Below, piece after piece: positions 26,298 to 54,935 of a stretch of 64,000 nucleotides of DNA. The notes below the pieces were generated by a model. That model was given only the letters and a program-made list of their open reading frames with translations, made no database searches and was not told the origin of the DNA. How positions within the stretch are numbered: the first letter of the stretch is position 1; the number at the start of each line of letters is the position of its first letter. The translations under genes and the position numbers were made by a program. Origin of the DNA: Mesostigma viride (taxonomy: Eukaryota; Streptophyta; Mesostigmatophyceae; Mesostigmatales; Mesostigmataceae); the NCBI GenBank assembly GCA_009746045.1, contig RPFO01000448.1, forward strand, positions 3,268,049 to 3,332,048. Direction: 5' to 3'.

Positions 26298-26369
26298 GGT
26301 GGTCCCACGCGGAATGGGGTCATTTTTGGCGCATTTTGCAAGAAAAAAACGCTAGTTTCAATCGTCCGA
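26298..26369 (+). repeat. Left terminal inverted repeat of the giant element
   Basis: It starts GGGTGGTCCCACGCGG and ends TTTCAATCGTCCGA. It contains about 10 bp not present in the right copy, between positions 26321 and 26334. The GGCGG target duplication is immediately outside. Confidence 0.85.
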
Positions 26370-26590
26370 TATCTTTTTTTCGCGCGAATTTGGCGTCCGA
26401 TCGCGTATTTTCGAGCTAATTTGGTGTCATAATGCTTAATTCATGTCAATTTGAGCGTACATTCCACATCGAGAGGCTTGAAAGTTAGTAATTCATGTAA
26501 ATTTTACGTGGAGAGACTCGACATCATCCTAACCTTTGTATTAACCATAGGACGAGCATTGCCAGCGCATGTCCAAGTGCTAACTTTCCC

Positions 26591-27187
26591 TCACACTTTC
26601 GAGGGCCTCTTCCGTAATTTCGCTTCCGCGATCTGCTGTTCCGTTTTCGAGTTCCTCCTCTTCTTATCGATCTCCTTTGCAGGCGCCCAGACTTCCACAT
26701 CCTTCCAGCTCTTGCCATCCGTCAGCTTTACCACCTTCATCGCGTAGTCCAGCGGCATCCACCACAACTTGTTCTTCAACTTCCCTCCCTTCTCCCCCTC
26801 AGCGAAAAACTTAAATGCGACGTCCCTCCACTTGGTGTCGTATCCAGACACCTGCCCATAAAGCATGACGTCTTCTAGCTTGGCATACATTGGCGTAGCC
26901 GTATCCTTGTTCCCTGCTTGCATAATGGCTAAAGTCCACCCATCACACCAAAAGGCCTCTGGTGCTCCGAACCCCATTTCCCCGTCCATAAGTCTCATTT
27001 CCAACGTGGGCTTGTCATCATCCTCATCGCCCGCCTGACTGTCTTCCGCCCCCTTAGGCTCCTCCCGTCCGGAAGTGTCAGCATGTACAGCCGCTGGTCC
27101 GAAGCCCACCGCCACATTAGCCAAGCGAAGTAACTGCTCCACATCCTCATTACCTGCGAGCAAACCGATCATGCCATCAACGCATGA
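26591..27187 (-). CDS. Last exon of the long gene
   Basis: Branch-like CTAAC and a TTTTAG acceptor precede 27187. The 199-residue segment is open to a stop at 26591. It contains WCDGWTLAIMQAGNK and a basic C-terminal tail (KKRRNSKTEQQIAEAKLRKR) resembling a nuclear localisation signal. The stop lies about 290 bp inside the element's left end. No family recognised. Confidence 0.65.
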   Translation of the reverse strand, partial: SCVDGMIGLLAGNEDVEQLLRLANVAVGFGPAAVHADTSGREEPKGAEDSQAGDEDDDKPTLEMRLMDGEMGFGAPEAFWCDGWTLAIMQAGNKDTATPMYAKLEDVMLYGQVSGYDTKWRDVAFKFFAEGEKGGKLKNKLWWMPLDYAMKVVKLTDGKSWKDVEVWAPAKEIDKKRRNSKTEQQIAEAKLRKRPSKV

Positions 27188-27248
27188 CTAAAATCGAGTT
27201 AGTAGAAATCGGACTGCCAACCGTGAAAAATCAAAACACTCTACATAC

Positions 27249-28944
27249 CAGAATTCACTCGCAGATTTTTTCTTACCCTTTTTGGCCTTTTCCTTCGACC
27301 TCTGCTCGCAGGTAGACCCCGTCTGGGGGTGGGGGGCAGGCGCCGGGGCGGGTTTGGCGGGCTCGGCAACCTTGGCAGTCTTCGCGGTCTTGGGTAACTT
27401 CTTGGAAGCAACGCGCTCCTTTCCCCCGTCCTCCTCCTCTCCGCCGCCATCCTCCTCCTCCTTCTCCTCCTCATCGTCCGAATCTGAAAGCACAACTGCT
27501 TTTCGACGCCGTTTCTGAGGCAGGGCAGGCTTGGGAGGCTTCCCCACCTTGGCCGATTTCTTGGAAGCAACGTGCTCCGCAGCCTTCCCACCCTTGGCGG
27601 ATTTCTTGGTAGCAACGTGCTGCTCCTCCTCCTCCTCCTCCTCCTCTCCCCCTCCTCCTCCTCAGCATCGTCGTCCTCCTCCTCCTCCTCCTCCTCAGCA
27701 TCGTCGTCCGAATCAGCCACTGCCACAACTGGCTTACGAAGCTGCTTCTTCGGTACCTGAGAAATGGCCAGAGTCGGCGGGGGAACCCGAAGCTGCTTCT
27801 TCGGTACCTGAGAACTGGGCAGAGGCGCCGGGGTGGGCAGAGTCGCCGGGGGAACCCGAAGCTGCTTCTTCGGAACCTGAAAAACGGGCTGCGACGCGGC
27901 AGGCTTGGAAGGCCCACCTCCATCATCCTCAACAAGTGACACGACTGCCCGTCGAGTCACTTGAGAAGCGGGCTTCTTCGCCGCAGGCGGATCCGAATCA
28001 CCTTCAGGCCCCGTCCTCTGTTCGGCCTGCTGCGTTCTGACCTCGACGGGGGTCTCTCCGCGGTTAGACCCTCCTGCCGGACCTCCATCCCCTCCATCCC
28101 CTCCCTCCAACAACTGTTGGTCATCCCTCTCCACCACGGCGGACGATCCCCCAGCTTCGTGGGAAGCTTTTCGCTTCTTCGCCCTTCCGAGCCTAGGCCC
28201 CCCATCACCTTCCCCCTGTTCAAGCCGCTCCCACAATTCACTCCCTTTCCCGATCCTTTCCACTATCTCTTGAAACCCCTTAATCTCCGTCTTGGTACCA
28301 AACACGATCACCATCGGTTCGAACCTGGAGAAAAAGTCGTGGGCGCAAGCCTTCAGCACATTATCGTACATCCCGCCCGGTTGGGGAATGGACGAAGCTG
28401 TCGGGCAAGGACCGAACGCCCACCACCCTCTCTGAAAGTTACTCCACTTATCACCCCAAATGTTCGCCAAGTTCAGCAGGCTCAGGCACGGAAGGGACCT
28501 GCCCAAGGGAAAGGGGCGGGCTGAAGCTGAGGCAACCTCGCCTGCCACCTGCTTGACGAGCGACTTGTCATCATCATCACCGTCTAGGGCCTGACAGCAA
28601 AACCAGACCCGGCGACGGCCCCAGTCCACACTCTGCCACTCATACTTCACGTCCCACTCCTCCTCCTCCTTCGCCTCCTCCTCCTTCTTCGCCTCCGTCT
28701 CCTTCCCCTTCCCCTTCCCCTTCCCCTTCTCCAGCCCCTTCACCGGCCCCTTCATCGCCGCCTCCTTCACCCCCCTTCGAGTAATCCAACTTTTGGAGCG
28801 TACTTCCTGAACGCTTCCGGAGCCAAAAGTGCCAAACCCACCGTCTTGTCCTCGCTCTCTTTTAGCAGAATCTCCTGAAAGTCGATCTTGCCACTACTGA
28901 GATCCTTTCTCGGAATCCTCAGATGTGCGGCGTGTTTTTTGGCT
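27249..28944 (-). pseudogene. Exon 8 (3' part) of the long gene, with frameshifts
   Basis: The part after the insertion begins KAKKHAAHLRIPRKDLSSG, loses frame at a G6 run (about 28771), and continues for about 370 codons. Features are a WDVKYEWQSVDWGRRRVWFC block, three QVPKKQLR repeats, and hydrophobic-acidic patches (VVSLVEDD, VVAVADSDDD, VVLSDSDDEEE). It shifts again in a GAGGAG tract near 27640. The donor GTATGT is at 27248. Confidence 0.6.
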
Positions 28945-28948
28945 TTAA

Positions 28949-30648
28949 CCCCTAAATGGTCTGGCTGCCGATTTTCCGCCTAAAACTGAGTTACAGCCGA
29001 CACGTCGGCCCCTTCTCGGGGGACCAAATGCCGCGAAAACTATTGAGAATTAGGAAACGTTTAGCTGAGAAGATCGAAAGTTTATAATTTTCCTCACAGC
29101 ATGGTACTAGGGTTTGCATACTTCTGACAAAGTTATAGAGGTGTTCTGGCCGGTCAAAGTACAAGGGGTCAGGGTACTTTTTCACGTAGAACGTGCATTC
29201 CGGAAAACGACGACCTGGCCATGGCGGCTTGCGCACACGCATGGCATTTACGTTTTCGTTCGAATTTTATGACCAAACTCAGGAAATTGATTTTATACGT
29301 CCTAAAGATGATACAGGCCAATTTTTGGTTCGCGGGAATGCCATTTGATAGGTGTCGGCAGCGTTCTTGCTGGAAAAAACTGCGATCAGGCCGGACGATA
29401 GAAACGTTGACAGCAATAACTTTCCGGCGTATTTTAAAGGATATATCGGTTTCTTTGTACTTTTTATGATACATGGTAGTCGTAAACGTGCAAGGGTGGC
29501 CAGAAATCGCCGAATCCAGCGACCATGCTGCACAACTTTGGTGTGCCGAAATGCGCCATTTTGCGGCCACCGCCTGGGCCAAGGTAACGCCATCCATGCC
29601 TGGTAAAGCTGAGTTATCGTTTTCCAATCGATATTTGACGTTTATATATACGTTCTAGCTTGTGTAGCACATTCTTTCTTCATTATTCATGCTCTTTCTT
29701 GACCATGGCCTGGCCCCTTCCTAAAACACCATTCTTAGATGCTTCCCTCAGTCAGTTGACCTGCCACAGGGTGATGGTGATAAGTTTTAGAGGCTGTATG
29801 GGTTTGAATACCTCCATATATGTTTGTTATACATTTCCCACACACATATTGCATGAGTGTAAGGCAGTTGGCTGGTCTCTGTGGCATCATCAAGCATGTA
29901 CCCGGTGAGTAGAAGCTTCCCATTGTCAGCATGTGCCACCAGGTGTGCTGGCCATCACCTGGCAAGCTATAGCAGCTTAGGCCTAGTTTATCCTTGCTAG
30001 GGCAAGCTGAAATAGGCTTAAAATCACTAGTTTGTTGGTGGCTGCCTCCTCGAATGCATGCCTTGCGTAGGGTATCCGTACTACGTTACCTACGTGCATG
30101 GACCAGGTGGCACCTGCACATAGGTGCCATGTAAGGGCAGTGTGATGATGCAGTTGTGTTTCCCCATCATTGTGGAAGGGAAATGTATGGTGTGGCATGG
30201 TTGGGGGACATTTTTAGTAGGTATTAGTAGGTAGTATGCCCACCCCTACCCCCTTGGTTGCTTTTTACCAACGGTACCCCTATGGGCTGTACTGGGTGTA
30301 ACTGCTGGTATACCCACCCTAATGATGACCCCAATGGCTCAAACTGTTCAGCAACTAATTGTTTATCATCCCTGAAGTGGTAGGTGCCTAGCTCTCACAA
30401 CATAATTCAAAATGCACATTCTACCAAAAATGAAAACGCTCGTCTTGACCCCCCTGACTTTGACGGCAGTTATACATGGCCTACCCTGCATATATGTAAG
30501 GTTATGATATACCAACCCGAAGGGCAACTCATGGACATGCTTGGCCCCCAAGGACAGCCATTGGATATGGGTGGGTTGGATGGCATCTGGTTTGCAAAAT
30601 TGTGAAGTTACAGCCGATGCATCGGCAGTATTTCTGCCCATTTAGGGG
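28949..30648. mobile_element. 1,700-bp piggyBac-like non-autonomous element
   Basis: Ends CCCCTAAATGG and CCATTTAGGGG are perfect 11-bp inverted repeats flanked by TTAA on both sides (28945-28948 and 30649-30652), the target and C-rich terminal pattern of the piggyBac superfamily. Subterminal AGTTACAGCCGA...TCGG occurs at both ends in the same orientation (28991 and 30607), and CTGCCGAT lies near each tip. No transposase ORF is present. It sits in a coding exon of the long minus-strand gene. Confidence 0.85.
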
Positions 30649-31477
30649 TTAAGAAGGTAGGCGATGTTCCTCGTTATGATGACGGCTACATCCCAAAATT
30701 CCCGGTATCTGGCCACAATCTCCTTCCTGCCGACCGGCCGAGCGAGAGGATGGAGATTGAAGACGAGTTCGAAAATATGAGACGCCACAAACTCCTTGCC
30801 CTTTGCGTCCTTGCATTGCGCTTCCAGCGTCTCATCCTCCTTGAATCTGGCGCAAATGGTCAGCCGCAGGCACTCCAGCACATCCTTGGCGAACTCCACC
30901 AACTTGGTGAGCTTTTCCGGTCCAACCTGGCAGCTCATGATGCAATCGATCACGGCGTCCATCATAGGAAGGCTGGCCAAGTTCCTGAAAGCGGTCCAAG
31001 AGACCTTCTGGCCTTTCTTCTCCCCCTCTGCATTCGCGAATTTGCACCTTTGCATCATCACCTCCTCAGGCGCGGGTTTCGTTGAGGCAGGATCATCAGT
31101 CTGCTCCTGTGTCAGACGGAGAAACGTGTTGGCCAGCGTGCGACTGTAAGCGGAATGCACTGAAGCAATGCTGTGGGCCGGCTTTTTCTTTCCTTCTGCT
31201 TCCTCCTCGTGTACATCCACCGCTGCCGGCTCCACATTCCCTTCCCTCCCCCCGCTTGCCGCATAGCCGGGAGGATGTACGTGAGCAGATTGGTATAGTG
31301 GCCATCCGCAATATAGTGGCCCTTCCCACGCGTGACTTTGCCGTGTAGATATAGCTTGTTGTAGTTCCACACGTCAAGCAAGGCCTGGCCCAGCGTACGA
31401 TCCGCCACGGCTAAGTCCTCCGAATTCGCCCCCTTGGCGATGTCGAACAGCTTCTCCAGCTTGCCGGTCAGCACCGC
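30649..31477 (-). CDS. Exon 8 (5' part) of the long gene, up to the piggyBac-like insertion
   Basis: The acceptor TGTCGCAG precedes 31477. The reading frame begins AVLTGKLEKLFDIAKGANS and stays open to about 31260, where a G-run (CGGGGGGAGGG) shifts it. It then continues as HEEEAEGKKKPAHS through a Cys-containing helical block to an apparent stop at 30642, which is provided by the inserted transposon (CTTAACCCCTAA). Joining across one TTAA restores the frame into 28944. Confidence 0.7.
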
Positions 31478-31732
31478 CTGCGACATCAATTAACATCGAG
31501 CGAGCAACGACAAAACTCGTTCATAAAAGGCGAGGGGTATAGCTGCGGATAGACCCTAATAAAATTCGAAAAAGAAACGGCCGACAATACGCAACGAAAA
31601 TTCCAACAAAAAAAAGGAGAGGGTCTAGCTGCAGCGAGACCCTCGCAAAAAACTTGAAGCGCACACAAAAAACAACCACGAAAATTCCGAGGGTCTACCC
31701 GCAGCTAGACCCTGCCAAAATAGATAGCTTAC
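31478..31732 (-). other. Intron of the long gene with three palindromic motif copies
   Basis: Donor GTAAGC at 31732 and acceptor TCGCAG at 31478. Copies of the element's palindromic motif lie at about 31533, 31622 and 31690 (for example GGGTCTACCCGCAGCTAGAC). Confidence 0.65.
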
Positions 31733-32319
31733 ATCTTCTTTTGCCTTAGGTAGATTTCGCAGCTCACTCCACGACGGGAGCAGCACTATACTATAAATTT
31801 ACGGCCCGTACACGTATACGGAAATTTTTACGGGCCGTAAATTTTGCGTTCGTACGCATATACTTACCACTCGTATACTGGCCGTAAAATTTACTACCGT
31901 ATACTTTTTCTCGTATACGGCAGTAAAGTTTACGGTAGTAAATTTTACGGCCAGTATACGAGAAAAAATTTACGGTAGTAAATTTTACGGCCAGTATACG
32001 AGAAAAAATTTACGGTAGTAAATTTTACGGCCAGTATACTAGAAAAAGTATACGGTAGTAAATTTTACAGCAAGTATACTAGAAAAAGTATACGGTAGTA
32101 AAAGTTTACGGCCAGTATACTGGACAAGTATACGGGCCGTAACCTTGTGATTTGTCCAACCTAGTGTATTGTGATTTGCGTTGTCATTTGACTTCATGGA
32201 AACATCATGTGGCAATAATTCAAATTAATTAATCAATTATCAATCATTCAAATTAATGAAGAAACACATTATACTACTAAGAAACACACTAGTTGAATTA
32301 ACCCTTATCAATCATTCAA

Positions 32320-32722
32320 ATTTCCCAGAGCATCAGCTCCACGACGTACGCGAAAATATGCCGAGCTATGGCTGCCGAGAATGCTCATAACTTTCGACTC
32401 AGGCCATGAAATTTAGTCGGGTTTGTTGCATTCGACTCGTCTTCTGATGACAAACACGCTGGTATAATTTCCGGCAGCTATCGTCCCCGATTTCGTACGT
32501 TCTCGACCTCGGCATGCCCAGCAGATATCGCTATTTTCGACTCGATATGGCGGCATTCCCTTCGTGAATAGCACGCCTGCGCCCCCCGCCCCAGCATTCG
32601 ACATCTTCCCCGTAGCTATGGAGGCCCCAACAACACCTGCCGCCCCAGAAACCCGGTCGCTGGACGACGTTCTTGCCGCAGCCAGCCCTTTCGTCGGCAT
32701 CGCTCCCGCCGCTCCCAAGTAG
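32320..32722 (+). pseudogene. LINE 5' monomer-like sequence and short ORF
   Basis: The segment ATGGCTGCCGAGAATGCTCA, then TAACTTTCGACTC, GCATTCGACTCGTCTTCTGA and CTGGTATAATTTCCGGCAGC, parallels the 5' monomers of the LINE at 23205. It is followed by a 34-codon ORF at 32618-32722 (MEAPTTPAAPETRSLDDV). It is probably a truncated retrotransposon carried by the CACTA element. Confidence 0.4.
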
Positions 32723-32724
32723 CC

Positions 32725-35700
32725 AAAGGAACTTAGGTAATGCAACGAGGGAGGGAAGCTAAGCAAGGGAGGGGAGGAAAGCTACTAAGGGAGAGGGAGG
32801 AAAGCTACGGGCATTAAGCTATGGGATATGAAAGGGGAGGGGAAGGAAGCTAAAGGAACTTAGGTAATGCAAGGAAGGAGGGAAGCTAAGAAAGTGAGGG
32901 GAGGAAAGCTACTAAGGGAGAGGGAGGAAAGGGAAGGGCATTAAGCTATGGGATATGGGAGGGGAGGGGAAGGAAGCTAAAGGAACTTAGGTAATGCAAG
33001 GAAGGAGGGAAGCTAAGAAAGGGAAGGGGAGGAAAGTTACTAAGGGAGAGGGAGGAAAGGGGAGGGAAGCTAAGATGGGAGGGGAGGGGAAGGAAGCTAA
33101 AGGAACTTCGGTAATGCAAGGAAGCCCCCAAGCTAAGAAAGGGAAGGGGAGGAAAGCTACTTAGAAGGGAGAGGGAGGAAAGGGGAGGGAAGCTAAGGGA
33201 TGGGAGGGGAGAGGAAGGAAGCTAAAGGAACTTAGGTAATGCAAGGAAGGAGGGAAACTAAGAAAGGGAAGGGGAGGAAAGCTACTAAGGGAGAGGGAGG
33301 AAAGGGAAGGGCATTAAGCTATGGGATATGGGAGGGAAGGGGAAGGAAGCTAAAGGAACTTAGGTAATGCAAGGAAGGAGGGAAGCTAAGAAAGGGAAGG
33401 GGAGGAAAGTTACTAAGGGAGAGGGAGGAAAGGGGAGGGAAGCTAAGATGGGAGGGGAGGGGAAGGAAGCTAAAGGAACTTCGGTAATGCAAGGAAGCCC
33501 CCAAGCTAAGAAAGGGAAGGGGAGGAAAGCTACTTAGAAGGGAGAGGGAGGAAAGGGGAGGGAAGCTAAGGGATGGGAGGGGAGAGGAAGGAAGCTAAAG
33601 GAACTTAGGTAATGCAAGGAAGGAGGGAAACTAAGAAAGGGAAGGGGAGGAAAGCTACTAAGGGAGAGGGACGAAAGGGAAGGGCATTAAGCTATGGGAT
33701 ATGGGAGGGGAGGGGAAGGAAGCTAAAGGAACTTAGGTAATGCAAGGAAGGAGGGAAGCTAAGAAAGGGAAGGGGAGGAAAGTTACTAAGGGAGAGGGAG
33801 GAAAGGGGAGGGAAGCTAAGATGGGAGGGGAGGGGAAGGAAGCTAAAGGAACTTCGGTAATGCAAGGAAGCCCCCAAGCTAAGAAAGGGAAGGGGAGGAA
33901 AGCTACTTAGAAGGGAGAGGGAGGAAAGGGGAGGGAAGCTAAGGGATGGGAGGGGAGAGGAAGGAAGCTAAAGGAACTTAGGTAATGCAAGGAAGGAGGG
34001 AAACTAAGAAAGGGAAGGGGAGGAAAGCTACTAAGGGAGAGGGACGAAAGGGGAGGGAAGCTCAGGGATGGGAGGGGAGAGGAAGGAAGCTAAAGGAACT
34101 TAGGTAATGCAAGGAAGGAGGGAAACTAAGAAAGGGAAGGGGAGGAAAGCTACTAAGGGAGAGGGAGGAAAGGGAAGGGCATTAAGCTATGGGATATGGG
34201 AGGGAAGGGGAAGGAAGCTAAAGGAACTTCGGTAATGCAAGGAAGGAGGGAAGCTAAGAAAGGGAAGGGGAGGAAAGTTACTAAGGGAGAGGGAGGAAAG
34301 GGGAGGGAAGCTAAGATGGGAGGGGAGGGGAAGGAAGCTAAAGGAACTTCGGTAATGCAAGGAAGCCCCCAAGCTAAGAAAGGGAAGGGGAGGAAAGCTA
34401 CTTAGAAGGGAGAGGGAGGAAAGGGGAGGGAAGCTAAGGGATGGGAGGGGAGAGGAAGGAAGCTAAAGGAACTTAGGTAATGCAAGGAAGGAGGGAAACT
34501 AAGAAAGGGAAGGGGAGGAAAGCTACTAAGGGAGAGGGACGAAAGGGAAGGGCATTAAGCTATGGGATATGGGAGGGGAGGGGAAGGAAGCTAAAGGAAC
34601 TTAGGTAATGCAAGGAAGGAGGGAAGCTAAGAAAGGGAAGGGGAGGAAAGTTACTAAGGGAGAGGGAGGAAAGGGGAGGGAAGCTAAGATGGGAGGGGAG
34701 GGGAAGGAAGCTAAAGGAACTTCGGTAATGCAAGGAAGCCCCCAAGCTAAGAAAGGGAAGGGGAGGAAAGCTACTTAGAAGGGAGAGGGAGGAAAGGGGA
34801 GGGAAGCTAAGGGATGGGAGGGGAGAGGAAGGAAGCTAAAGGAACTTAGGTAATGCAAGGAAGGAGGGAAACTAAGAAAGGGAAGGGGAGGAAAGCTACT
34901 AAGGGAGAGGGACGAAAGGGGAGGGAAGCTCAGGGATGGGAGGGGAGGGGAAGGAAGCTAAAGGATCTTAGGTGCTGCAAGGAAGGAGGGAAGCTAAGAA
35001 AGGGAAGGGGAGGAAAGCTACTAAGGGAGAGGGACGAAAGGGGAGGGCATTAAGCTATGGGACATGGGAGGGGAGGGGAAGGAAGCTAAAGGAACTTAGG
35101 TAATGCAAGGAAGGAGGTAAGCTAACAAAGGGAAGGGGAGGAAAGCTACTTAGAAGGGAGAGGGACGAAAGGGGAGGGAAGCTCAGGGATGGGAGGGGAG
35201 AGGAAGGAAGCTAAAGGAACTTAGGTAATGCAACGAGGGAGGGAAGCTAAGCAAGGGAGGGGAGGAAAGCTACAAAGGGAGAGGGAGGAAAGGGAAGGGC
35301 ATTAAGCTATGGGATATGGGAGGGGAGGGGAAGGAAGCTAAAGGAACTTAGGTAATGCAAGGAAGGAGGGAAGCTAAGAAAGGGAAGGGGAGGAAAGTTA
35401 CTAAGGGAGAGGGAGGAAAGGGGAGGGAAGCTAAGATGGGAGGGGAGGGGAAGGAAGCTAAAGGAACTTCGGTAATGCAAGGAAGCCCCCAAGCTAAGAA
35501 AGGGAAGGGGAGGAAAGCTACTTAGAAGGGAGAGGGAGGAAAGGGGAGGGAAGCTAAGGGATGGGAGGGGAGAGGAAGGAAGCTAAAGGAACTTAGGTAA
35601 TGCAAGGAAGGAGGGAAACTAAGAAAGGGAAGGGGAGGAAAGCTACTAAGGGAGAGGGACGAAAGGGGAGGGAAGCTCAGGGATGGGAGGGGAGGGGAAG

Positions 35701-36150
35701 GAAGCTAAAGGATCTTAGGTGCTGCAAGGAAGGAGGGAAGCTAAGAAAGGGAAGGGGAGGAAAGCTACTAAGGGAGAGGGACGAAAGGGGAGGGCATTAA
35801 GCTATGGGACATGGGAGGGGAGGGGAAGGAAGCTAAAGGAACTTAGGTAATGCAAGGAAGGAGGTAAGCTAACAAAGGGAAGGGGAGGAAAGCTACTTAG
35901 AAGGGAGAGGGACGAAAGGGGAGGGAAGCTCAGGGATGGGAGGGGAGAGGAAGGAAGCTAAAGGAACTTAGGTAATGCAACGAGGGAGGGAAGCTAAGCA
36001 AGGGAGGGGAGGAAAGCTACAAAGGGAGAGGGAGGAAAGGGAAGGGCATTAAGCTATGGGATATGGGAGGGGAGGGGAAGGAAGCCATAGGAACTTAAGT
36101 AATGCAAGGAAGGAGGGAAGCTAAGAAGGGAGGGGAGGGGAGGGAAGCTA
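32725..36150. repeat. Purine-rich minisatellite with a 373-bp higher-order repeat
   Basis: Tandem GGGAGGAAAGCTA, AGGAACTTAGGTAATGCAAG and GAAGGAGGGAAGCTAAG units show strong purine/pyrimidine strand bias. Landmark segments recur at 32946, 33319, 33692 and 34187, 34560, a 373-bp period. A longer block of about 747 bp repeats near 34853 and 35600. Repeated 61-residue minus-strand ORFs here are artefacts of the array. Confidence 0.95.
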
Positions 36151-36154
36151 GCGG

Positions 36155-37190
36155 CCCACATGCATCTCTCCCTCGACAAGGAACAAGCGCATGCACCCAC
36201 CCACCCCACATGCACCCCTCCCTTTACAAGAAACAAGCATGTGGGCCCACCTACTGCAATGCATCCCTCCCTTGATAAAGAACACACACATGCACCCACC
36301 CACCGCGCATGCATCCCTCCCTTGACAAGGAAGAAGCATGTGCACCCACCCCACCTGCGTCCCTCCCTTGACAAGGAACAATTTCATGCACCCACCCACC
36401 CACATGCATCTCTACCTTGACAAGGAACAAGAGCATGCACCTACCCACCGGGCATGCATCCCTCCCTTGACAAGGAACAAGCATGTGTACCCACCCACCC
36501 CACATGCATCCCTCCCTTTACAAGAAACAAGCACGTGAACCCACCTCATGCACAAGCATCCCTCCCTTGATAAGGAACAAGCACGTGCACCCACCCACCC
36601 CACATGCACCCCTCCCTTTACAAGAAACAAGCATGTGGGCCCACCTACTGCAATGCATCCCTCCCTTGATAAAGAACACACACATGCACCCACCCACCGT
36701 GCATGCATCCCTCCCTTGACAAGGAAGAAGCATGTGCACCCACCCACCCCACCTGCGTCCCTCCCTTGACAAGGAACAAGCGCATGCAGCCACCCACCCC
36801 ACATGCAGTCCTCCCTTTACAAGAAACAAGCACGTGCACCCACCTACTGCACATGCACCCCTCCCTTGACAAGGAACAAGCGCGTGCACCCACCCACCCC
36901 ACATGCATCCCTCGACAAGGAACAAGCGCGTGCACTCACCCACCCCACATGCATCCCTCCTTTGACAAGGAAAAAGCACGTGCAACCACCCACCCCACGT
37001 GCATCCCTCCCTTGACAAGGAACAAGCACGTGCACTCACCCACCCCACATGCATCCCTCCTTTGACAGGAAAAAGCACTTGCACTCACCCACCCCACATG
37101 CATCCCTCCCTTGACAGGGAAAAAGTGCGTTCACCCACCCACCCACACGCATTCCTCTCTTGACAACGAACAAGCACGTGAACCTACCTA
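36155..37190. repeat. Minisatellite of about 55-62 bp inside the CACTA element
   Basis: About seventeen copies of a unit with CATGCATCCCTCCCTTGACA, AGGAACAAGC and GTGCACCCACCCACCCCA. Long ORFs on both strands are shadows of this array. Confidence 0.93.
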
Positions 37191-44009: not shown

Positions 44010-44544
44010 AACAATATCAAAAAAGCAAGTTTCACAAATGTCATTCAGAATCTGAATCGCCGGCAGAAAAACGATGGGGAGGGTCTCGCTGCAGCTAGAC
44101 CCTTTCGTGGATTCTAAAAGGGACATTTAGTTTAATGCAAAACTTTGGCGTCTCGCTGCAGCGAGACCCTCACTTCAAGCAAAAACAAATCATTTTTAGG
44201 GTGAGCGTAAACAAGCAACCTCCCATCATGCAAACATAAAAAAGTATACATTCCTTGGGGTCTCGCTGCAGCGAGACCCTAACGTCAAACAAAAACAAAT
44301 AATTTTTAGGGTGAGCGAAGAAAGCCCCCTCCCATCTTGCAAACATTAAAAGTCGACATTCGTAGGGGTCTCGCTGCAGCGAGACCCTAACACCGATACA
44401 AAAACAAATCATTTTAAGGGTGAGAAAAGAAAGACCCCCCATCATGAAAACATGAAAAATTGACATTCCTTGGGGTCTCGCTGCAGCGAGACCCTAACGT
44501 CAATACAAAAACAAAATTCCGAGGGTCTACCCGCAGCGAGACCC
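44010..44544. promoter_or_regulatory. Seven palindromic motif copies upstream of the long gene
   Basis: GGTCTCGCTGCAGCGAGACC or close variants start at 44081, 44149, 44258, 44366, 44473 and 44523. From 44149 to 44494 they sit in tandem units of about 107-109 bp that also contain ACAAATCATTTTTAGGGTGA. The cluster lies in the spacer between the two divergent genes and directly precedes the minus-strand gene. It could be a regulatory or transposase-binding region; that role is inferred from position and symmetry only. Confidence 0.5.
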
Positions 44545-44569
44545 TTACGACCACGTATAAATACATGTG

Positions 44570-45221
44570 GGGGGGGAAGCTACGTATAAATACATGTGGG
44601 GGGGGATGCTATGTATAAATGCATGTGGGGGGGTGCTGGCATTAATAATTAAATGTGGGGGGGTGATGGCATGAATAAATAAATGTGGGGGGGTGCTGCC
44701 ATGAATAAAAGAATGTGGGGGTGTGATGGCATGAATAAATGAATGTTGGGGGGTGCTGGCATTAATAATTAAATGTGGGGGGGTGATGGCATGAATAAAT
44801 AAATGTGGGGGGGTGCTGCCATGAATAAAAGAATGTGGGGGTGTGATGGCATGAATAAATAAATGTGGGGGGTGCTGCCATGAATAAAAGAATGTGGGGG
44901 GGTGCTGCCATGAATAAAAGAATGTGGGGGTGTGATGGCATGAATAAATGAATGTTGGGGGGTGCTGGCATTAATAATTAAATGTGGGGGGGTGATGGCA
45001 TGAATAAATAAATGTGGGGGGGTGCTGCCATGAATAAAAGAATGTGGGGGTGTGATGGCATGAATAAATGAATGTTGGGGGGTGCTGGCATTAATAATTA
45101 AATGTGGGGGGTGATGGCATGAATAAATAAATGTGGGGGTGTGCTGCCATGAATAAAAGAATGTGGGGGGGTGATGGCATTAATAATTAAATGTGGGGGG
45201 ATGATGGCATGAATAAATAAA
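44570..45221. repeat. Minisatellite, ATGAATAAATGAATGTGGGG type
   Basis: About twenty tandem copies of a unit of about 30 bp containing GAATAAATAAATGTGGGGGG and GTGCTGCC or GTGATGGC. It is related to the reverse complement of the array that follows, so the two form a head-to-head pair. Confidence 0.93.
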
Positions 45222-47430
45222 TGATACGTAGCATCACCCCCCCACATGTATTGATACGTAGCATCACCCCCCCACGTGTATTAATACGTAGCATCCCCCC
45301 CACATGTATTGATACGTAGCAGCACCCCCCCACATGTATTGATACGTAGCAGCACCCCCCCACATGTATTGATACGTAGCAGCACCCCCCCACATGTATT
45401 GATACGTAGCATCCCCCCACACATGTATTGATACGTAGCAGCACCCCCCCACATGTATTGATACGTAGCAGCACCCCCCCACATGTATTGATACGTAGCA
45501 GCACCCCCCACATGTATTGATACGTAGCAGCACCCCCCCACATGTATTGATACGTAGCAGCACCCCCCACATGTATTGATACGTAGCAGCACCCCCCACA
45601 TGTATTGATACGTAGCAGCACCCCCCCACATGTATTGATACGTAGCAGCACCCCCCCACATGTATTGATACGTAGCACCCCCCCACATGTATTGATACGT
45701 AGCAGCACCCCCCACATGTATTGATACGTAGCAGCACCCCCCCACATGTATTGATACGTAGCAGCACCCCCCCACATGTATTGATACGTAGCAGCACCCC
45801 CCCACATGTATTGATACGTAGCAGCACCCCCCCACGTGTATTGATACGTAGCAGCACCCCCCCACATGTATTGATACGTAGCAGCACCCCCCCACATGTA
45901 TTGATACGTAGCAGCACCCCCCCACATGTATTGATACGTAGCAGCACCCCCCCACATGTATTGATACGTAGCACCCCCCCACATGTATTGATACGTAGCA
46001 GCACCCCCCCACATGTATTGATACGTAGCAGCACCCCCCACATGTATTGATACGTAGCAGCACCCCCCACATGTATTGATACGTAGCAGCACCCCCCCAC
46101 ATGTATTGATACGTAGCAGCCCCCCCACATGTATTGATACGTAGCAGCACCCCCCACATGTATTGATACGTAGCAGCACCCCCCCACATGTATTGATACG
46201 TAGCAGCACCCCCCACGTGTATTGATACGTAGCAGCACCCCCCCACGTGTATTGATACGTAGCAGCACCCCCCCACATGTATTGATACGTAGCAGCACCC
46301 CCCCACATGTATTGATACGTAGCAGCACCCCCCCACATGTATTGATACGTAGCATCCCCCCCACACATGTATTGATACGTAGCAGCACCCCCCCACATGT
46401 ATTGACACGTAGCAGCACCCCCCCACATGTATTGATACGTAGCAGCACCCCCCACATGTATTGATACGTAGCAGCACCCCCCCACGTGTATTGATACGTA
46501 GCAGCACCCCCCCACATGTATTGATACGTAGCATCCCCCCACACATGTATTGATACGTAGCAGCACCCCCCCACATGTATTGATACGTAGCAGCACCCCC
46601 CCACATGTATTGATACGTAGCAGCACCCCCCCACATGTATTGATACGTAGCAGCACCCCCCCACGTGTATTGATACGTAGCAGCACCCCCCCACATGTAT
46701 TGATACGTAGCAGCACCCCCCCACATGTATTGATACGTAGCAGCACCCCCCACATGTATTGATACGTAGCAGCACCCCCCCACATGTATTGATACGTAGC
46801 ATCCCCCCACACATGTATTGATACGTAGCAGCACCCCCCCACATGTATTGATACGTAGCAGCACCCCCCACATGTATTGATACGTAGCAGCACCCCCCAC
46901 ATGTATTGATACGTAGCAGCACCCCCCCACGTGTATTGATACGTAGCAGCACCCCCCCACATGTATTGATACGTAGCAGCACCCCCCCACATGTATTGAT
47001 ACGTAGCAGCACCCCCCCACATGTATTGATACGTAGCAGCACCCCCCCACGTGTATTGATACGTAGCAGCACCCCCCCACATGTATTGATACGTAGCAGC
47101 ACCCCCCCACATGTATTGATACGTAGCAGCACCCCCCCACATGTATTGATACGTAGCAGCACCCCCCCACATGTATTGATACGTAGCAGCACCCCCCCAC
47201 GTGTATTGATACGTAGCAGCACCCCCCCACATGTATTGATACGTAGCAGCACCCCCCCACATGTATTGATACGTAGCAGCACCCCCCCACATGTATTGAT
47301 ACGTAGCAGCACCCCCCCACGTGTATTGATACGTAGCAGCACCCCCCCACATGTATTGATACGTAGCAGCACCCCCCACATGTATTGATACGTAGCAGCA
47401 CCCCCCCACATGTATTGATACGTAGCAGCA
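45222..47430. repeat. Minisatellite, CACATGTATTGATACGTAGC type
   Basis: About seventy copies of a 30-31-bp unit CACATGTATTGATACGTAGC plus AGCACCCCCC. Units vary in C-run length and by CACGTG versus CACATG. The three overlapping minus-strand ORFs of over 700 codons are artefacts of a repeat without stops. Confidence 0.97.
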
Positions 47431-49140
47431 CAATTTTAGTCAGCCTACCATCCACGTTGCGGCAAAAGATCACCTTTTTTTGTGTTTCGGCAAAATGAAG
47501 ATTTCTTGCAAACTATCGTTATGCAGGCAGGTAGCAACGTCCGATGTTATAATCCGGCAGGTAGCATGCAAACGTCGAAACGATATGAAGGGGAAAAAAA
47601 GCATCAAACAGGAGCACCGATTAGAAACGCAGCAAATGCAGTATGTGCACATCTACACCTATAACCTAACCAGACCAAAGGCATAGCAAACATGGAAAGG
47701 GTGACCCAAGTGAAAGCCTAGCACCACCATGATCGACATGTGCGAGACCAAGAAACGCTCCATGGCAACTAGACTAAAGGGATGGATGCCAGATGTGGAT
47801 TAGGATCGGCTTAGCTGACTCTACCGAGATGTCTGCAGGGTTTAGCTAGCAACGAAAAGAAGGAAGCCAGACATTTTTATCACTCTTGCTGCAACATAGA
47901 GTTTCTTGCGATGGCAGCAAGGACATGTCTTCGCCCAGCTGGCTAACTGTGTCGTCGGCGTGCATGCGCTGTTTAGTTGCCGTTTTTGATAGAACAATTT
48001 TAGTCAGCCTACCATCCAGGATGCGGCAAAAGCTCACCTTTTTTTCGTTGTGCGGCGAAAGCAGACCGATTTCCTTGTAAACTTCCGGCACCAGGCAGGT
48101 ATCAACGTAGGATTTTATAATCCAGCAGGTAGCATGCAAACGTCGAAACGATATGGCAGCTCGTATCAGCTATGGGGTCTCTCTGCGGCTGCGCTTCTTT
48201 TTCGATGGGCGATGGGACGGTCGCAATTCGCAAAACGGACGCGGCGTCACAGGGCTGAACGGTATTGAAAAAATTGGAAACGTGGCATCCTCGTTCCTCC
48301 CCACGGAACTGAAAACTGGAAGCGCGGCGCTGGTGCAAAAGCTCGATCCCATCTTTTGGAACCAAGCTAGCGGATTGGACGACATCCAATATGCCGTCAC
48401 CCGTGCTTGTGGCCGCAGGTATAAAAAGAGACGACCTCCAGCCCATTTACCTGGGAACATTCGGATGTTTGGCTGACATCGTTACCATGCGTCAATGTAC
48501 AATGAGGTTCTGGGTTCGATTCCTGGTGTGGTCATGGAAATAAATTTTTTTCTGCACATCTACTGAAATCAGTCATAGCACCAAACAATCACGCTGCAGC
48601 GAGACGCTATAGCCCTGGAGCCCGCTGATAAACCTGACATCCGGTACGTCTTACTATCATAGATTGCCGAACTATATAATAATAATAGTCTATACCACTT
48701 TTTCTTGTAAATGATTTACTAAATAATGATTCTATATACTTTAACATACCATATTATTAAAGTATGTGGAATTTAACCATGCTATTCACAATATATTATA
48801 AAATCTTTTGCAAAATATACTGTAATTAGTATATATATTTTCTGTCATATTGGCGTCAGCGCTTGTCGGTGGCGCTGACTCGGGCCATGGCTGACATCAT
48901 GCTCCGCCGTACGCGGGCTGATTTTGCGGTGCAGCAGGGCTATTAGGTTCCTCCCGTTAGGCGTTTCCATTGGTCTTATCGTAGTATAGAGCTTTGACAT
49001 GGCTCTGTATATAGGTTCATAGCTGGGCGTTTGCTTTGGTTTGAGTGATTTCACTCTGCTGTAAGTAATTATATTTTTAATATATATTTTCTGATAAACA
49101 ATTTTATCAATGCTACTGTGTTATTTTTGTTATTCTCGCC
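47431..49140. other. Spacer in the giant element with a direct repeat
   Basis: About 160 bp is repeated directly: 47430-47592 and 47993-48155 both start AATTTTAGTCAGCCTACCAT and end GCATGCAAACGTCGAAACGA. Degenerate palindromic motif copies lie at about 48177 and 48592. GGGTTCGATTCCTGG at about 48512 is a B-box match, but no tRNA cloverleaf with a paired acceptor stem could be folded. The rest, up to the ATG at 49141, is AT-rich and would contain the + gene's promoter. Confidence 0.5.
48153..48476 (+). CDS. Hypothetical 107-residue ORF
   Basis: An open frame starting MAARISYGVSLRL and ending in a basic stretch (CGRRYKKRRPP). The start lies in the direct repeat and overlaps a degenerate palindromic motif, and nothing similar is recognised. 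It may be a chance ORF or an exon. Confidence 0.2.
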   Translation: MAARISYGVSLRLRFFFDGRWDGRNSQNGRGVTGLNGIEKIGNVASSFLPTELKTGSAALVQKLDPIFWNQASGLDDIQYAVTRACGRRYKKRRPPAHLPGNIRMFG

Positions 49141-52100
49141 ATGCAGGTATCTGAGTGTTCTGGGAGAACTAATAAGAGAATGAGCCGCGAAGGTGAGGAA
49201 AACCTGAAATCTTTTCGTCCTTATTGGGGTCTCTCTGCAGCTAGACCATTTATAACCACAAGCAATAGCTTAAATTCAAGGGTCTCGCTGCAGCTAGACC
49301 CTCTTTATGGTTGCTATAAAATTAATGAATCAGAAGTCTGTGATTTAACAATCGCACGCCGCAATGAAGGGTCTAGCTGCAGCGAGACCCCAATCTTGGT
49401 CGGGGTATGCTAAGTTCACCACATCAGGTAATCTTTTCGTCTAACGGAAAAAGCCCCTCTAAGGGTCTAGCTGCAGCTAGACCCCAATCGTGGTAAAAAA
49501 TGATACACTTTCGAACTTTGTCTGTAATTGTCGCTTTTCCCAACGATACTCGATTTGCATGGATTTCGTTGTGCCGGTCGTCATGGCATGCAGCACGCGA
49601 ACGGGTGGGAGTTTTCGCCCTTGCGTCCGGTCGTCCAGGATTCAGTGCAATTAAGTTGAACACCGGGACGAAGCAGTCAACTGGCGCAAAAAGGGTTTTC
49701 GGAGATGAGAACCAGAATCCAGCGCAGCCTGAAGCCAAGGAAGTCAAGCGGCCGGGAGAATACTCGAAATCAAAGAGGGTTATTGGGGAATATTTCGCTG
49801 ACCAGGCGTTTGAAGCGGCTCAGGCGATGACAAAACCCGAGGGGCGGGGGCCGGCTTTCGACCAGATGATTGCTGGCTTTAACTCTAGGGCCGCTGAACT
49901 AGGTCACGGGAAGTATCATGAGGAGGCGAAAAAGCTTTACAATCAGGAGCGGATGGCAGAACTGAACAGGTTCTGGGTGGCTCGGATTAACGGCTTTTTT
50001 GATGGTCTGACCAAAAGCGACGCAGACAGAGACGTCAGGATGGTGCTGATGTCCACGCTTTACTGTGGTGACGACTTGGAGAAGGAGTTTTCGGCCGCGG
50101 AGTTGGAGAACCTGACGGGGATGGACGCCAAGAAGATTCGCGGAATTCGCGCGATACGAAGGCAGCAGAAGTTGGACTACCTCAGACACGCGCAGGCTCG
50201 CAAGGGGCGCCCTTTGCCGCAATTCGTGATTGACGCGATAGTGGACGCGTGGATGCACGATGATGAGTCGCGCGCCTCCTCCCAGATGAAGGATGTCAAG
50301 CGCACTTACAGCAGGGAGGGTCGTGGCAATCACGGGGTGCTCGTCGCCGTTGAGGGAGCGCGCTATTACATGACCTCCAAGGAGGACATGTACAATCACT
50401 TTCTCGAAAAGCATGCGTACTGGAACAAAAGGAGTAACCAGTATGATAAGGACGTGGGCATTCACGTGGGCTACACGACCTTCTGCAAATACGCGCCCGA
50501 TTGCATCAAGGGCAAGTGGAAGGAGAGGAACCTGTGCGCGTGTGAGAAGCACGTCACCATGCAGTCGGCCATGGGGGCGTGGACCAAGCACTCCAATGCG
50601 AACCACGGCAAGAACTGCAAGTGTGGCGCGGAGTGTGCGGGATGCTCCAAGTACAGAGAGCCGGACGGTACTTGCGGAATGTGGAAAGCCATTCACTCGA
50701 CGGACTGGATCAAGCACTTTCACTGCCCGGTGTCCGCCGAGACTGACGGCAGGGATAACGGGCTGCGTGAAGGGGGCGGAATGGGCGGGGGGATGGAAGA
50801 GGGGGAGGGGGAAGATGAATGGCGGGGACGGGACCTGGAAGACCTCGACATTTCTGAGAGGCTGGTGGAGGACGAAGATGGGGTGCCGAGGACGGAGAGG
50901 GTTCACCGCATACTGAAGATGGCGTGTGTGGAGGGGTTCTGTCCTGAGGAATCATGCGGCATCCATAATAACTGGGTGCAGTGTGATCGGGACAAGAATT
51001 CCACGGAGATTCTGAATTGGTTCAAGTTCGAGATGGTGGAGCAGACTGTGACCCGACGGGTGAATGTGAGTTGGTTTCGATTTTATTTCTCCGTTAATAT
51101 GTTGTTGACTTTTTTTTTTGTGACCTATAGCTGCAGCGAGACCCTTTGTGAGTTGCAGTTATCTTATCGAAATGCGATTTTATTGCAAATCGAAACTGTC
51201 TGCGGACCTTTGCGAAACAGGGCGAGACCGATGGCAGGGCGGCGAAGAAGGTGAAGCGGCCCGAGCAAGTCCAAATGAGGTCCACCCCAGCTGAGCTGCG
51301 GGACGAGATTCTTAAGATGTGGGACAAGTTCACCGTGCACTGCTTTACGGCCTGGTCGCAGGCGGATACAATCAAGGATCGGGAGAAGAATCTGAGAGAG
51401 GGGGACGTGCTCGTGCACGGCGACTGGGCCGAGAACTACGAGAACAGCAGCTACGTCCAACTGCAGTCGCAGTACTTCCACAAGCGCAGCCACATCCTGA
51501 TGCCCATGATCGTGCGTTATCGGCTCAACGGCGAGCTGGAAAAGCGCGTCTTCTTTTTCCTGGGGGATTCCAGTATCAAGCGGGGCGAGCGCGCACTCGT
51601 ATACGCTCTTCGCAAGATTCTGGAAACCCTGCGGGTAGAAGTAGGGGTAGAGGTGCGAAACCTGTACATGTGCTCGGACAACTGCGCGGTGCAGTTTAAG
51701 TCCAGGTACGTGATTAACCAGATTAACGGTCTGCTCATGGGGGATCCCGACCTGCAGGCCTTTGAGTTCCACTACATGGGGGAGCAGCATGGGAAGGGGG
51801 AGGTGGATGGTCAAGGAGCGAAGTGCAAGTGCGTCTTGAGGGAAATGCAGAGGATTCCCGAAAACCAGCACATACTTGAGACCCACCAGCTAGTCGCCTA
51901 CTTGAACCAGAACTGGCAGGGCGGCAAGACATCGAGCAGGGAGTCGGCCCGCGCGCGGGCCGAGAACGTCACTCGCCACTTCTTCCTTTTACCCCCGGTA
52001 CGGAATTGTGTGTTATTTCAGGTTTTAAGACGTCAACTGCCGCTGTTCTATAAAAATTCAAACCCAATAAAGGTATCTCTGCAGAGAGACCCTATATACT

Positions 52101-53228
52101 GTCAATGGGTTGCTTTTCTTTTAGGTATGAAATTTCGCTTGTTCTATCGGTATGAAGGGGTCTCTCTGCAGCTATACCCTGTGTCGAATTTCGATCACTT
52201 GATATCTTGTCGTACGTTGTTATTATGATTCGAATGGGGTCTCTCTGCAGCTATACCCTGTGTCGAATTTCGATCACTTAATATCTTGTCGTACGTTGTT
52301 ATTATGATTCGAATGGGGTCTCTCTGCAGCTATACCCTGTGTCGAATTTTGATCACTTGATGTCTTGTCGTTATTTTTTTTTTGTAAGGGGTCTCTCTGC
52401 AGCTATACCCTGTTTTATTGATTTTTGGTCAATTTTGCTAACTTGAACGGTATTCTTTTTGCCCTAACTATTTGATGACAGGACGTCGAGTCCGGCCGAC
52501 GCGCGGAGGTGGAGGAGGTGCCTGGCATCAAGAAGGCGCATTGGTGGCGACTGGACAAGTCCGACCCTGGCCTTTTGATGATTAGGCGCTATTCCTGCTA
52601 CTGTCCGCCCTGTTTGGCTGGGCGGTTTGAGGGATGTCTAAGCGAGTGGTCGTTTATCATCGAGTTCAATGATGCAGGAAGCTCGATGAAAACTGTCCGT
52701 TTGCTGCCACCGAGCCAGCCCAACCCTCCGGTTCGCATGGTGACGCGGGGGGAGCAGCTGAAGGACAAGCGGGAGGCGATGGGCCGGCAGATGAGACTCC
52801 ACGACTATGTGGCAGTTCCATCGGACAAGGACACGGATCACGATCCCATCCACCCGTTCTGGTTGGCTGAGGTTGTAAGCGAAGCCGGGCCGATCGTGTT
52901 AGACGAGAACTTCGAGAGGTGGGTCGAGGGCCGGAACGGACGGGAGAAGGAGCTGTTCCTCGCCGGGAACGGCATTCTTCCCGTTCGGATTTGGAAGCGG
53001 GATAAGCATGACCCCCTGCATTTCACGCTCAACGTTGAGGATTGGCCACCGTCACGCCAGCCCGAGCTTGTGAATTGCTATCTCTGCGTCGCTCCGGCTC
53101 TCCGGCTAGAAGCACGCGTGCGCAGCGACGGAATGTGTGCCGACATCAGGATGAGCAAGGAGCTCGACAAGTGGCTTACTGCGCTGGTGATCAAGGATGA
53201 AGCCCCGGAGGGGCCGGCACCGACTTAA
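49141..53228 (+). CDS. Candidate transposase of the giant element, DDE-like, 4 exons
   Basis: Exons 49141-49192, 49639-51065, 51221-51997 and 52482-53228 total 3003 nt (1000 codons plus stop). Phases are 1-1, 0-0 and 0-0 and all sites are GT-AG. Residues about 299-380 and 446-466 are rich in Cys and His (CACEKH, CKCGAECAGC, CPEESCG), likely zinc-binding. Exon 3 contains HGDWAENY (Asp at about 561), CSDNCAVQFKSR (Asp at about 646) and HGKGEVDGQGA (Asp at about 689 or Glu at about 687), which fits an RNase-H-fold DDE/D catalytic triad. The same signature occurs, from memory, in uncharacterised metazoan and protist proteins. The C-terminal 248 residues (WW...RLDKSDPG onward) are globular and unassigned. 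The N-terminus is basic. Introns carry palindromic motif copies. The frame is intact, unlike the divergent long gene. Confidence 0.75.
49193..49638 (+). other. Intron 1 of the DDE-like gene with four palindromic motif copies
   Basis: Donor GTGAGG at 49193 and acceptor GTCCAG ending at 49638. Motif copies lie at about 49227, 49280, 49368 and 49461. An alternative start at 49500 within this intron would remove exon 1, but exon 1 and exon 2 match in phase. Confidence 0.55.
51998..52481 (+). other. Intron 3 of the DDE-like gene with repeated motif units
   Basis: Donor GTACGG at 51998 and acceptor GATGACAG ending at 52481. It has five copies of the motif in the form GGGTCTCTCTGCAGCTATAC at about 52075, 52158, 52236, 52317 and 52389. 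Three lie in tandem units of about 80 bp with TGTGTCGAATTTCGATCACT. Confidence 0.6.
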
Positions 53229-53518
53229 ACAAGAAATTGGGGTCTCGCTGCGGGTAGACGACGCCCTAGTTTCGGCTCGTATTATATCTTTAGAGTGGGG
53301 CTTCAGTAGGGTGTAAAAAGGTGGCCGCATATATTGTATATATTTTTCGAGATCTTTCTGAGGTCAAGTTTAAGGGTAGTTGATAATTTTTTGCGGCCTT
53401 CAATTAACAGTTATTTTTTACTGCAACATAATTTTATGCTGTATATTTAAATAATGATAAGGATTTCGATATTTTTTTGCACAATCTATTCGACATTTGT
53501 TTCTGCATGTCGAGAATT

Positions 53519-53733
53519 TATTGCTCCACCCCCACAAAAAAAATCGTTCCGGAACTGTTCGAAGCGAATAGCACTGACAGGATTCGAACCCGGGTCCACC
53601 TTAATGTTCGGAGTGAGGTAGGCCAGCCATCATGTTCCGCACTCAAATCTGGCTCGGGTCCGATCCCTCCATTGCTCTTCGCTTCGAACAGCTCCGGAAC
53701 AAGTTAGGTGTGGGGTTGGAGCAATAAATACTT
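53519..53733. mobile_element. MITE-like element with long inverted ends and a tRNA-like B box
   Basis: TTTATTGCTCCACCCCCACA on the left and its inverse TGTGGGGTTGGAGCAATAAA on the right, together with GTTCCGGAACTGTTCGAAGC and its inverse, form arms of about 55 bp. On the minus strand the centre contains GGGTTCGAATCCTGTC, a pol III B-box match. This is the same architecture as the element at 11063 but with different sequence. Confidence 0.6.
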
Positions 53734-54049
53734 ATTTGCCGGGCGCAGTTGTCATTCCGCCTAGTACAATTGCGTCACTAGTACAATTTTTGTCTGGGTA
53801 CGGTACGAACCAATAACGCAATATTTAGTATCTAATCGCCGCTGCTCTTGCTGAATTTTATCCGGAAGCTGAAAAAGGTGTCCGGTGAAGCGAATACTAG
53901 TGACTGGTGGTCGTGCCCTTCCATTACTCCTTATCGACAAATTTTGGGTTCTACCTGCAGTTATAACCCTTGCGCGTCTGGCTGTCGGGGTCACCAATTT
54001 CCTGTCGATTGCAAGCAGCCAACCTTGCCGAAATTTAACACTGTCACAA

Positions 54050-54487
54050 ATGGAGCAGAGCAATATTTTCGGTTCTCAGCATACCTATGTGATGGTCGAC
54101 AAAAATGAGCACGCTGCAAACATCAGAATTGATGTAGAGTTGCTCGGACCTTCTGCACAGTGGGGTGCAGGTGTCATTGCGTTCGGCAATGGCATGATCG
54201 ATCTGGTGCCACCCGATTCAGATTTGAACCCTGCTTACCAATGCGTGCCTGACAATCAGGCGAGAGTGGTGGTGGAGAGCACGGAAATTCCGGGCTCTCC
54301 CAATGTATCAATGATGCGCCTGAGGGCCGAGGCCCAGCAGGAGTTCCTGGCTGCTGCGGAGAACGGCGGGGCCAAGTGGAACACCAAAATGTATACAGGC
54401 GAGCCTCCCAACTACAGGGGAGACCAGTACCAGGGAGTGTACTCCTTCGGCGATTTTGACATCGACGGATGGGGCACCTTTTTCTAG
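54050..54487 (+). CDS. Small protein gene at the right end of the giant element
   Basis: The 145-codon ORF starts MEQSNIFGSQHTYVMVDKNE and ends YSFGDFDIDGWGTFF. ATG in TCACAAATGG context. The frame is open upstream to 53885, so a longer start or a 5' exon is possible. It is the only ORF between the DDE-like gene and the right TIR and is read in the same direction. No family is recognised. Composition is normal, acidic near the C-terminus. Confidence 0.5.
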   Translation: MEQSNIFGSQHTYVMVDKNEHAANIRIDVELLGPSAQWGAGVIAFGNGMIDLVPPDSDLNPAYQCVPDNQARVVVESTEIPGSPNVSMMRLRAEAQQEFLAAAENGGAKWNTKMYTGEPPNYRGDQYQGVYSFGDFDIDGWGTFF

Positions 54488-54575
54488 GCGCAATGCCTAA
54501 GTTGTCAAATACTCCGACAATGTCAAAATTGCGAATGATAAAATTACGGACATGTGCACATATATGTACTGATTC

Positions 54576-54581
54576 AATAAA
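54576..54581 (+). terminator. AATAAA polyadenylation signal
   Basis: AATAAA lies 88 bp after the stop of the small ORF at 54487, at a normal distance for a polyadenylation signal. Confidence 0.5.
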
Positions 54582-54871
54582 AACTTTCGGCAATTTTGTT
54601 CCCGGCATTGATAATCAATAGCTGCTAGCAAGCCAAGGACTTCAAAAGTGGCAATAGATCGATGTAGGTCGTCGATAAACTTGTCTAGTCGTCATATTTC
54701 GGTCGCAAAATTCGTGCGTGGCCTGCAGGCATCGGACAAAGTGCACGCAACAGCAGGAGTCGGTTGAGTTCGAAGCACGGCAGACACAAAATTTCGGCGC
54801 AAAGTCCGTCGGGCGAAAAATTCGCTCGGCTGCCAAATTTTCGGCAAGAATTTCGGCGCAATGTCCGGTTT

Positions 54872-54935
54872 TCGGACGATTGAAATTAGCGTTTTTTTCT
54901 TGCAAAAATCTACCCCATTCCGCGTGGGACCACCC
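54872..54935 (-). repeat. Right terminal inverted repeat of the giant element
   Basis: Read on the minus strand from 54935 it begins GGGTGGTCCCACGCGG and continues to TTTCAATCGTCCGA at 54872. Just inside are two direct copies of AATTTCGGCGCAA (about 54790 and 54851), possible subterminal protein-binding sites. GGCGG follows at 54936-54940. Confidence 0.85.

Follow-up and report, generated by a model that had tools for sequence, protein, structure and literature searches.

A giant terminal-inverted-repeat transposon of Mesostigma viride with two divergent genes and a family-private palindrome

Introduction

Is a stretch of 28.6 kb bounded by inverted repeats in the genome of the streptophyte Mesostigma viride a single transposon, and what is the role of a 22-bp palindrome that recurs throughout its interior? 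The question arises from a window of 64,000 nucleotides (contig RPFO01000448.1, the whole stretch of DNA analyzed, from whose first letter all positions are counted), in which an earlier note based on the sequence had described a DNA transposon with two divergent giant genes. Giant transposons are expected to be hard to mobilize and easy to silence, and the family described here is nevertheless present in many nearly identical copies. The results indicate that the element is very probably a member of a giant autonomous-type family of cut-and-paste transposons with a core of ∼19.7 kb, in which the transposase would be encoded on the plus strand and the palindrome bound by a protein of the element itself.

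Results

The left terminal inverted repeat (TIR; 26297-26354, plus strand) consists of GGGTGGTCCCACGCGGAATGGGGT, an indel and a 21-bp identical block, and the right TIR (54887-54935, minus strand) was placed by comparison with it. Positions 26297-26320 and 54912-54935 are reverse complements of each other without a mismatch over 24 bp, as are, past the indel, 26334-26354 and 54887-54907 over 21 bp. Inverted repeats of ∼65-72 bp lying 28.6 kb apart had been proposed; they are present as these two identical blocks, and the left end is at 26297, where the shortest listed matches in other copies start, rather than at 26298. The termini of the outer element read GGGTGG...CCACCC. The left flank closes with ...CTGGGCG and the right flank opens with GGCGGACAT, with the target site duplication (TSD) GGCG read at 26293-26296 and 54936-54939.

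In order to locate further copies, the 440-Mb assembly containing the window (2,243 contigs) was searched with probes for both ends, and the best 40 of 470 left-end and of 481 right-end candidates were scored. Sixteen end pairs were assembled from the listed matches, of which three (C557, C2056 and C1446) had no right end in the part of the contig compared, leaving 13 for comparison. The TSD was exactly 4 bp in 12 of the 13 pairs, the window included (CAGG, AGGC, GGCG, TTCG, TGGC, GGCG, AGCG, GGCA, AGCG, AGCA, CGCC and GGCG), and the left flanks of these 12 were all different; the remaining pair (C382) had no shared bases at its ends. Agreement over 4 bp at two random positions in the window flanks occurs by chance with a frequency of 0.0055. 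Since exactly 4 bp are shared, the fifth G of the duplication GGCGG given in the earlier note is a coincidence. The other paired copies were 19,550 to 34,582 bp long (n = 11, with C382 and without C887). Thus, the further copies with the same termini for which the note had called were found, and the element is a real TIR transposon with TSDs and with other copies in the host genome. That the locus is instead a segmental duplication or repeat artefact with inverted ends arising by chance could draw only on its repetitive surroundings, in which LINE-like (long interspersed nuclear element) copies lie inverted around the element, and is almost certainly wrong, given that 12 different flanks adjoin the same termini, each with a 4-bp TSD.

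Near-identical or identical flanks were also observed on several contigs (L048-L051, L007/L008, L046/L064 and L002/L005). These contigs resemble uncollapsed haplotypes, so the copy numbers are not insertion numbers; the haplotypes seem to have been assembled separately and could supply empty alleles.

The comparison of copies revealed that the 28.6-kb element is a composite, a core of ∼19.7 kb with later passengers, contrary to the coherent interior at first described. The largest passenger is a CACTA-like element of 7,191 bp (31784-38974) with termini CACTATACTATAAA...TTTATAGTATAGTG, a 2-bp TSD (AG), subterminal palindromic arrays and large internal satellites. The second, of 1,700 bp (28949-30648), has termini CCCCTAAATGG and the TSD TTAA, a piggyBac-type target. 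No transposase was found in either nested element. Both sites are empty in 10 of the 11 other copies: the joined 60-base CACTA junction had no mismatch in eight of the 10 and one and two mismatches in the other two, and the TTAA junction had none in all 10. The eleventh copy, C887, matches neither junction, and its alignment enters the TTAA insert; part of this copy (L078) aligns over 28948-28976, and it may have a TTAA-type insert in common with the window. Once the short flanks are joined, the minus-strand reading frame runs on across both insertion points. Without the two inserts the window copy is 19,742 bp, compared with 19,550 bp for copy C1424. A third, retroposon-like passenger (48845-49093), consisting of ∼235 bp and a single unit of a 14-bp direct repeat, was recognized by comparison of copies. 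The segment at ∼48845-49079 is cleanly missing in two copies (L016 and L022), and a 14-bp overlap of their alignments at the site indicates the direct repeat; a third copy (L015) has a different sequence at this position, and the segment occurs by itself in L024.

Inverted satellites in the center had also been claimed, and repeat analysis located them between the two genes as 30-bp arrays of opposite orientation (44551-47431); the sister copy described below has a 30-bp satellite in the corresponding position. The second satellite complex, at 31.8-39.0 kb, was considered as a central satellite of the outer element and rejected; because of the CACTA ends and the empty sites in other copies it is assigned to the nested CACTA-like element. 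Separately, inverted matches of 24-27 bp were observed between 38170-38399 in this nested element and 63198-63224 to the right of the outer element.

A sister family was identified from a copy at C1:2461001-2481500 with a transposase exon 68% identical to that of the window. The one copy read has the same layout, with a giant minus-strand gene, the 30-bp satellite between the genes, a transposase and a downstream open reading frame (ORF), and the identities given below are between the amino acid sequences of the window and this copy.

The plus-strand gene opens with an exon of 522 residues (49500-51065; 52% identity) in an open frame with clusters of cysteine and histidine that may bind zinc, as their sequence suggests. 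A GT-AG intron in phase 0 (51066-51220) precedes exon 2 (51221-52002, 3' border approximate; 67%), for which a ribonuclease (RNase) H-like domain is predicted and which contains the blocks HGDWAENYE, CSDNCAVQFKS and EQHGKGEVDGQGAK. These blocks may also resemble uncharacterized animal proteins, a likeness that is given no weight here. Exon 3 (52482-53228; 60%) is an open frame following the acceptor, and a downstream plus-strand ORF of 145 residues (54050-54487; 59%) is found in the same order in the sister. The transposase exons are still open in the window copy. The gene had no Pfam match in a scan with E-values up to 0.5 that covered the coding-strand frames of three stretches (∼21.5 of the 28.6 kb, with the opposite strand and the satellites outside it), a scan that spliced domains could escape. 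As a control, the same scan identified a LINE-type Exo_endo_phos domain in the flank (∼22.0-22.7 kb, minus strand, E-value 2.7e-6).

Structure prediction from the single sequence was of low quality, with a predicted local distance difference test (pLDDT) score of 34. The model from two sequences was better, if modest, with an RNase H-like strand order and with D68 and D153 where expected; E188, E194 and D196 are conserved in the sister and lie in a low-confidence part. When the predicted transposase was compared with known structures by VIA-align, all 50 rows were Argonaute/PIWI-type proteins, with no transposase chain among the matches listed. Based on the two-sequence model, a DDE/D transposase is the probable product of the plus-strand gene.

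The second gene spans 44001 to 26591 on the minus strand with approximately nine exons delineated by eye. Its 5' part (38975-44001), with splice sites also placed by eye, comprises exons at ∼42807-44001, 41576-42621, 41400-41466, 41204-41265, 40950-41079, 40282-40823 and 38975-40092, of which four were tested and matched in the sister with 26-61% identity. In the middle part (30653-31783) the segment 31733-31783 resumes the exon that the CACTA-like insert interrupts and is followed by the exon 30653-31470. The frame of the 3' part (26591-28944) joins across the TTAA insertion point, and this part is outside the sister stretch compared, which ends before the last two exons. The exons of window and sister agree in order and orientation, with identities of 31%; 26 and 31%; 61 and 39%; 57%; and 36%. 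As judged by this conservation, the minus-strand giant gene is the conserved second gene of the element.

Two large divergent genes are accordingly present as the earlier note had described, the minus-strand one interrupted by inserts. In the window copy this gene is split by the two inserts and its frame is broken in G-rich runs, and the sequence predicts that these later insertions and breaks have disabled it. One of its exons was examined in 10 other copies and found open for 171-366 codons (366 being the length examined) in nine, longer than in the window, indicating that copies with a longer minus-strand frame exist. In the tenth copy (C1602) the exon is open for 121 codons as in the window, and the common frame break is either inherited or a shared homopolymer error. 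A reading of the minus-strand gene as captured cargo, outside the machinery of transposition and its control, would fit the lack of a known domain (no Pfam match with E-values up to 0.5) and the broken window copy, which implies mobilization in trans or later decay. It is unlikely, considering that the sister keeps the gene, its exons unchanged in order and 26-61% identical, and that the exon examined is open for longer than the window's in nine of 10 other copies.

The palindrome GGGTCTCGCTGCAGCGAGACCC, at up to five mismatches, occurs at 24 sites in the window, all 24 inside the element. A weight matrix built from these sites detected 28, again all inside, against a background mean of 0.02, and none in the other 35 kb of the window, so the motif is as private to the element as first claimed. 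Only one of the 28 sites is in a listed exon, the list accounting for 10,780 of the 28,639 bp. By the same matrix the CACTA-like insert has no site, and one weak site (30294) lies inside the TTAA insert. The mismatch and weight-matrix scans placed four sites just 5' of the transposase ATG (49227-49484) and three in an intron of the minus-strand gene (31535-31712). Six more are arrayed 5' of the minus-strand gene (44081-44544), partly in 107-bp tandem units (44145-44515), and five in transposase intron 2 (52071-52410), partly in 79-bp tandem units (52157-52413); being partly in tandem units, the sites are not independent.

The genome contains 1,363 occurrences of the strict form of the palindrome and none of a reversed control. 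By hand comparison, 46 of 50 listed genome sites are within ∼16 kb of a family end or transposase exon, and the remaining four (C1:655963-686130) are linked to no located family end or transposase exon. The flanks of five copies, including that of the window, contained no site in 7,521 bp. The sister carries a different palindrome, GGTCGCGCTGCAGCGCGACC, and related sites, some of them in 58-bp tandem units upstream of the minus-strand gene of the sister. The motif classes of window and sister, defined after seeing both, are mutually exclusive, with counts of 10/0 and 0/8.

The palindrome is present in seven of the 10 introns delineated by eye (both of the transposase gene and five of the eight of the minus-strand gene), a location that would also suit RNA hairpins of introns or untranslated regions acting in splicing or RNA stability. 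This explanation is improbable, since clusters are also located upstream of the ATG, in DNA of unproven transcription, and it is weakened by the lack of covariation between the halves: across 26 sites (19 distinct), two weak ones of the 28 having been dropped, none of the 11 position pairs departed by more than 0.06 from the pairing expected.

Internal sites bound by a transposase have a parallel in the TnpA sites of Spm, and the palindromes could likewise be accessory sites of the element's own transposase for complex assembly or regulation, with no role against silencing. The motifs are private to each family and differ between the two, as do the transposases, and four of them are just upstream of the transposase ATG. 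In contrast, palindromes with up to three mismatches are at least 5.3 kb from the left end and at least 2.5 kb from the right end, and both genes have sites in their introns and 5' regions, locations that leave accessory transposase sites somewhat unlikely.

Three further features were observed. A short stretch at 53516-53729, past the transposase stop and before the downstream ORF, resembles a miniature inverted-repeat transposable element with 13-bp inverted ends (ATTTATTGCTCCA). The LINE-like copies flanking the element on the left (24455-25290) and right (58347-59204) are 91% identical and of opposite orientation. Past the downstream ORF of the sister (L067:8135-10000 on C1), directly after the conserved part, a 723-aa open frame starts that had no Pfam match in the first 622 residues scanned and may be cargo, a neighbor or a nested element.

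Discussion

The common ends, 4-bp TSDs, many copies, two-gene layout in two families and family-private motif are observed, and the mechanism proposed here builds on them. The plus-strand DDE/D transposase would act on the GGGTGGTCCCACGCGG ends and insert the element at GC-rich 4-bp targets, with catalysis inferred. The 22-bp palindrome, distributed over introns, the 5' regions of the two genes and further non-coding DNA, would be bound by a protein encoded in the element. By analogy, the most likely role of such self-recognition would be to keep the genes of the element active or un-silenced, as VANC does for VANDAL. The locus is best read as a recently active giant transposon with palindromes that bind an element protein, possibly against silencing. 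A more specific proposal, about as probable as binding by the transposase, is offered tentatively: the minus-strand giant protein would bind the palindrome, which the element would have spread across its introns and promoters, protein and motif would co-diverge between the sister families, and the binding would shield the element from host silencing, with the self-recognition system having evolved independently in a giant transposon lineage outside the Mutator-like elements (MULEs).

No described match for the element appeared among the open-licence papers listed in literature searches. Three protein scans of viral contigs yielded no relative, nor did these contigs contain an exact copy of the TIR or palindrome or a pattern of the HGKG type. 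No Pfam family was identified in the ∼21.5 kb of frames scanned, in agreement with the earlier statement that the gene set is that of neither a Polinton/Maverick (no polymerase B, packaging ATPase or capsid) nor a Starship (no tyrosine recombinase captain). Cut-and-paste elements of this size had been called uncommon in eukaryotes; comparable giants are known in algae: the KDZ, EnSpm and Sola-1 elements of Ectocarpus are mostly >10 kb and reach >30 kb according to the passages on them in PMC12477816, where nested foreign inserts are usual, as in the element here. With KDZ elements (Zisupton, Dileera and Kyakuja) it also has accessory genes and giant size in common (PMC12477816, same passages); membership was rejected on the 4-bp TSD, compared with the 7-8 bp given for KDZ in an excerpt of PMC12730594. 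The outer element is large like CACTA/EnSpm elements and was rejected as one of them on its GGGTGG termini and 4-bp TSD, since the usual termini are CACTA/CACTG and the usual TSD is 3 bp (superfamily entry in PMC10741241). The CACTA...TAGTG ends and subterminal repeats of this kind, with a TSD of 2 rather than 3 bp, belong to the nested element at 31784-38974.

By target duplication the element is Sola-like, membership being unproven. The entry for Sola in PMC10741241 gives a 'DDD-TPase', 4-bp TSDs, TIRs of 11-1124 bp and some elements >15 kb. The TSD here is 4 bp in 12 of 13 end pairs, and the identical blocks of 24 and 21 bp are within the TIR range, which is not specific. The TSDs here are GC-rich, compared with AT-rich ones for Sola2 in the part of PMC3627910 that describes them. 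The passages of PMC12477816 on Sola1-1_Ec32 of Ectocarpus describe a 21.5-kb element with an opposite-strand gene containing ParB-like and DNA methyltransferase domains. The giant size, the 4-bp TSD and the presence of an opposite-strand second gene are common to both elements, and an acidic-triad transposase may be so as well; unlike Sola1-1_Ec32, the opposite-strand gene of the M. viride element has no Pfam match, and the family-specific palindromes present here are unmentioned in those passages.

The closest parallel to the palindromes is found in VANDAL elements, for which the sections of PMC5735166 on VANC motifs describe non-coding sequences that are intronic and upstream, often tandem, and different between families. 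In the two families compared here the motif is likewise private to the element, located in introns, upstream and in other non-coding DNA, often tandem, and different between relatives. As with VANC, parts of the second protein are more divergent than the transposase, and the protein contains peptide repeats. Unlike the directional 9-bp motif of VANDAL, the motif here is a 22-bp palindrome, and no MULE transposase domain was among the Pfam results for the coding-strand frames scanned. If the proposal is true, sequence-specific self-recognition would have arisen independently of MULEs in a giant transposon lineage. Sister families that share their layout and have mutually exclusive palindromes constitute a natural test of the co-evolution of a protein of a selfish element with the DNA address tag of that element, a pattern comparable to that described for the plant VANDAL elements in the same sections of PMC5735166.

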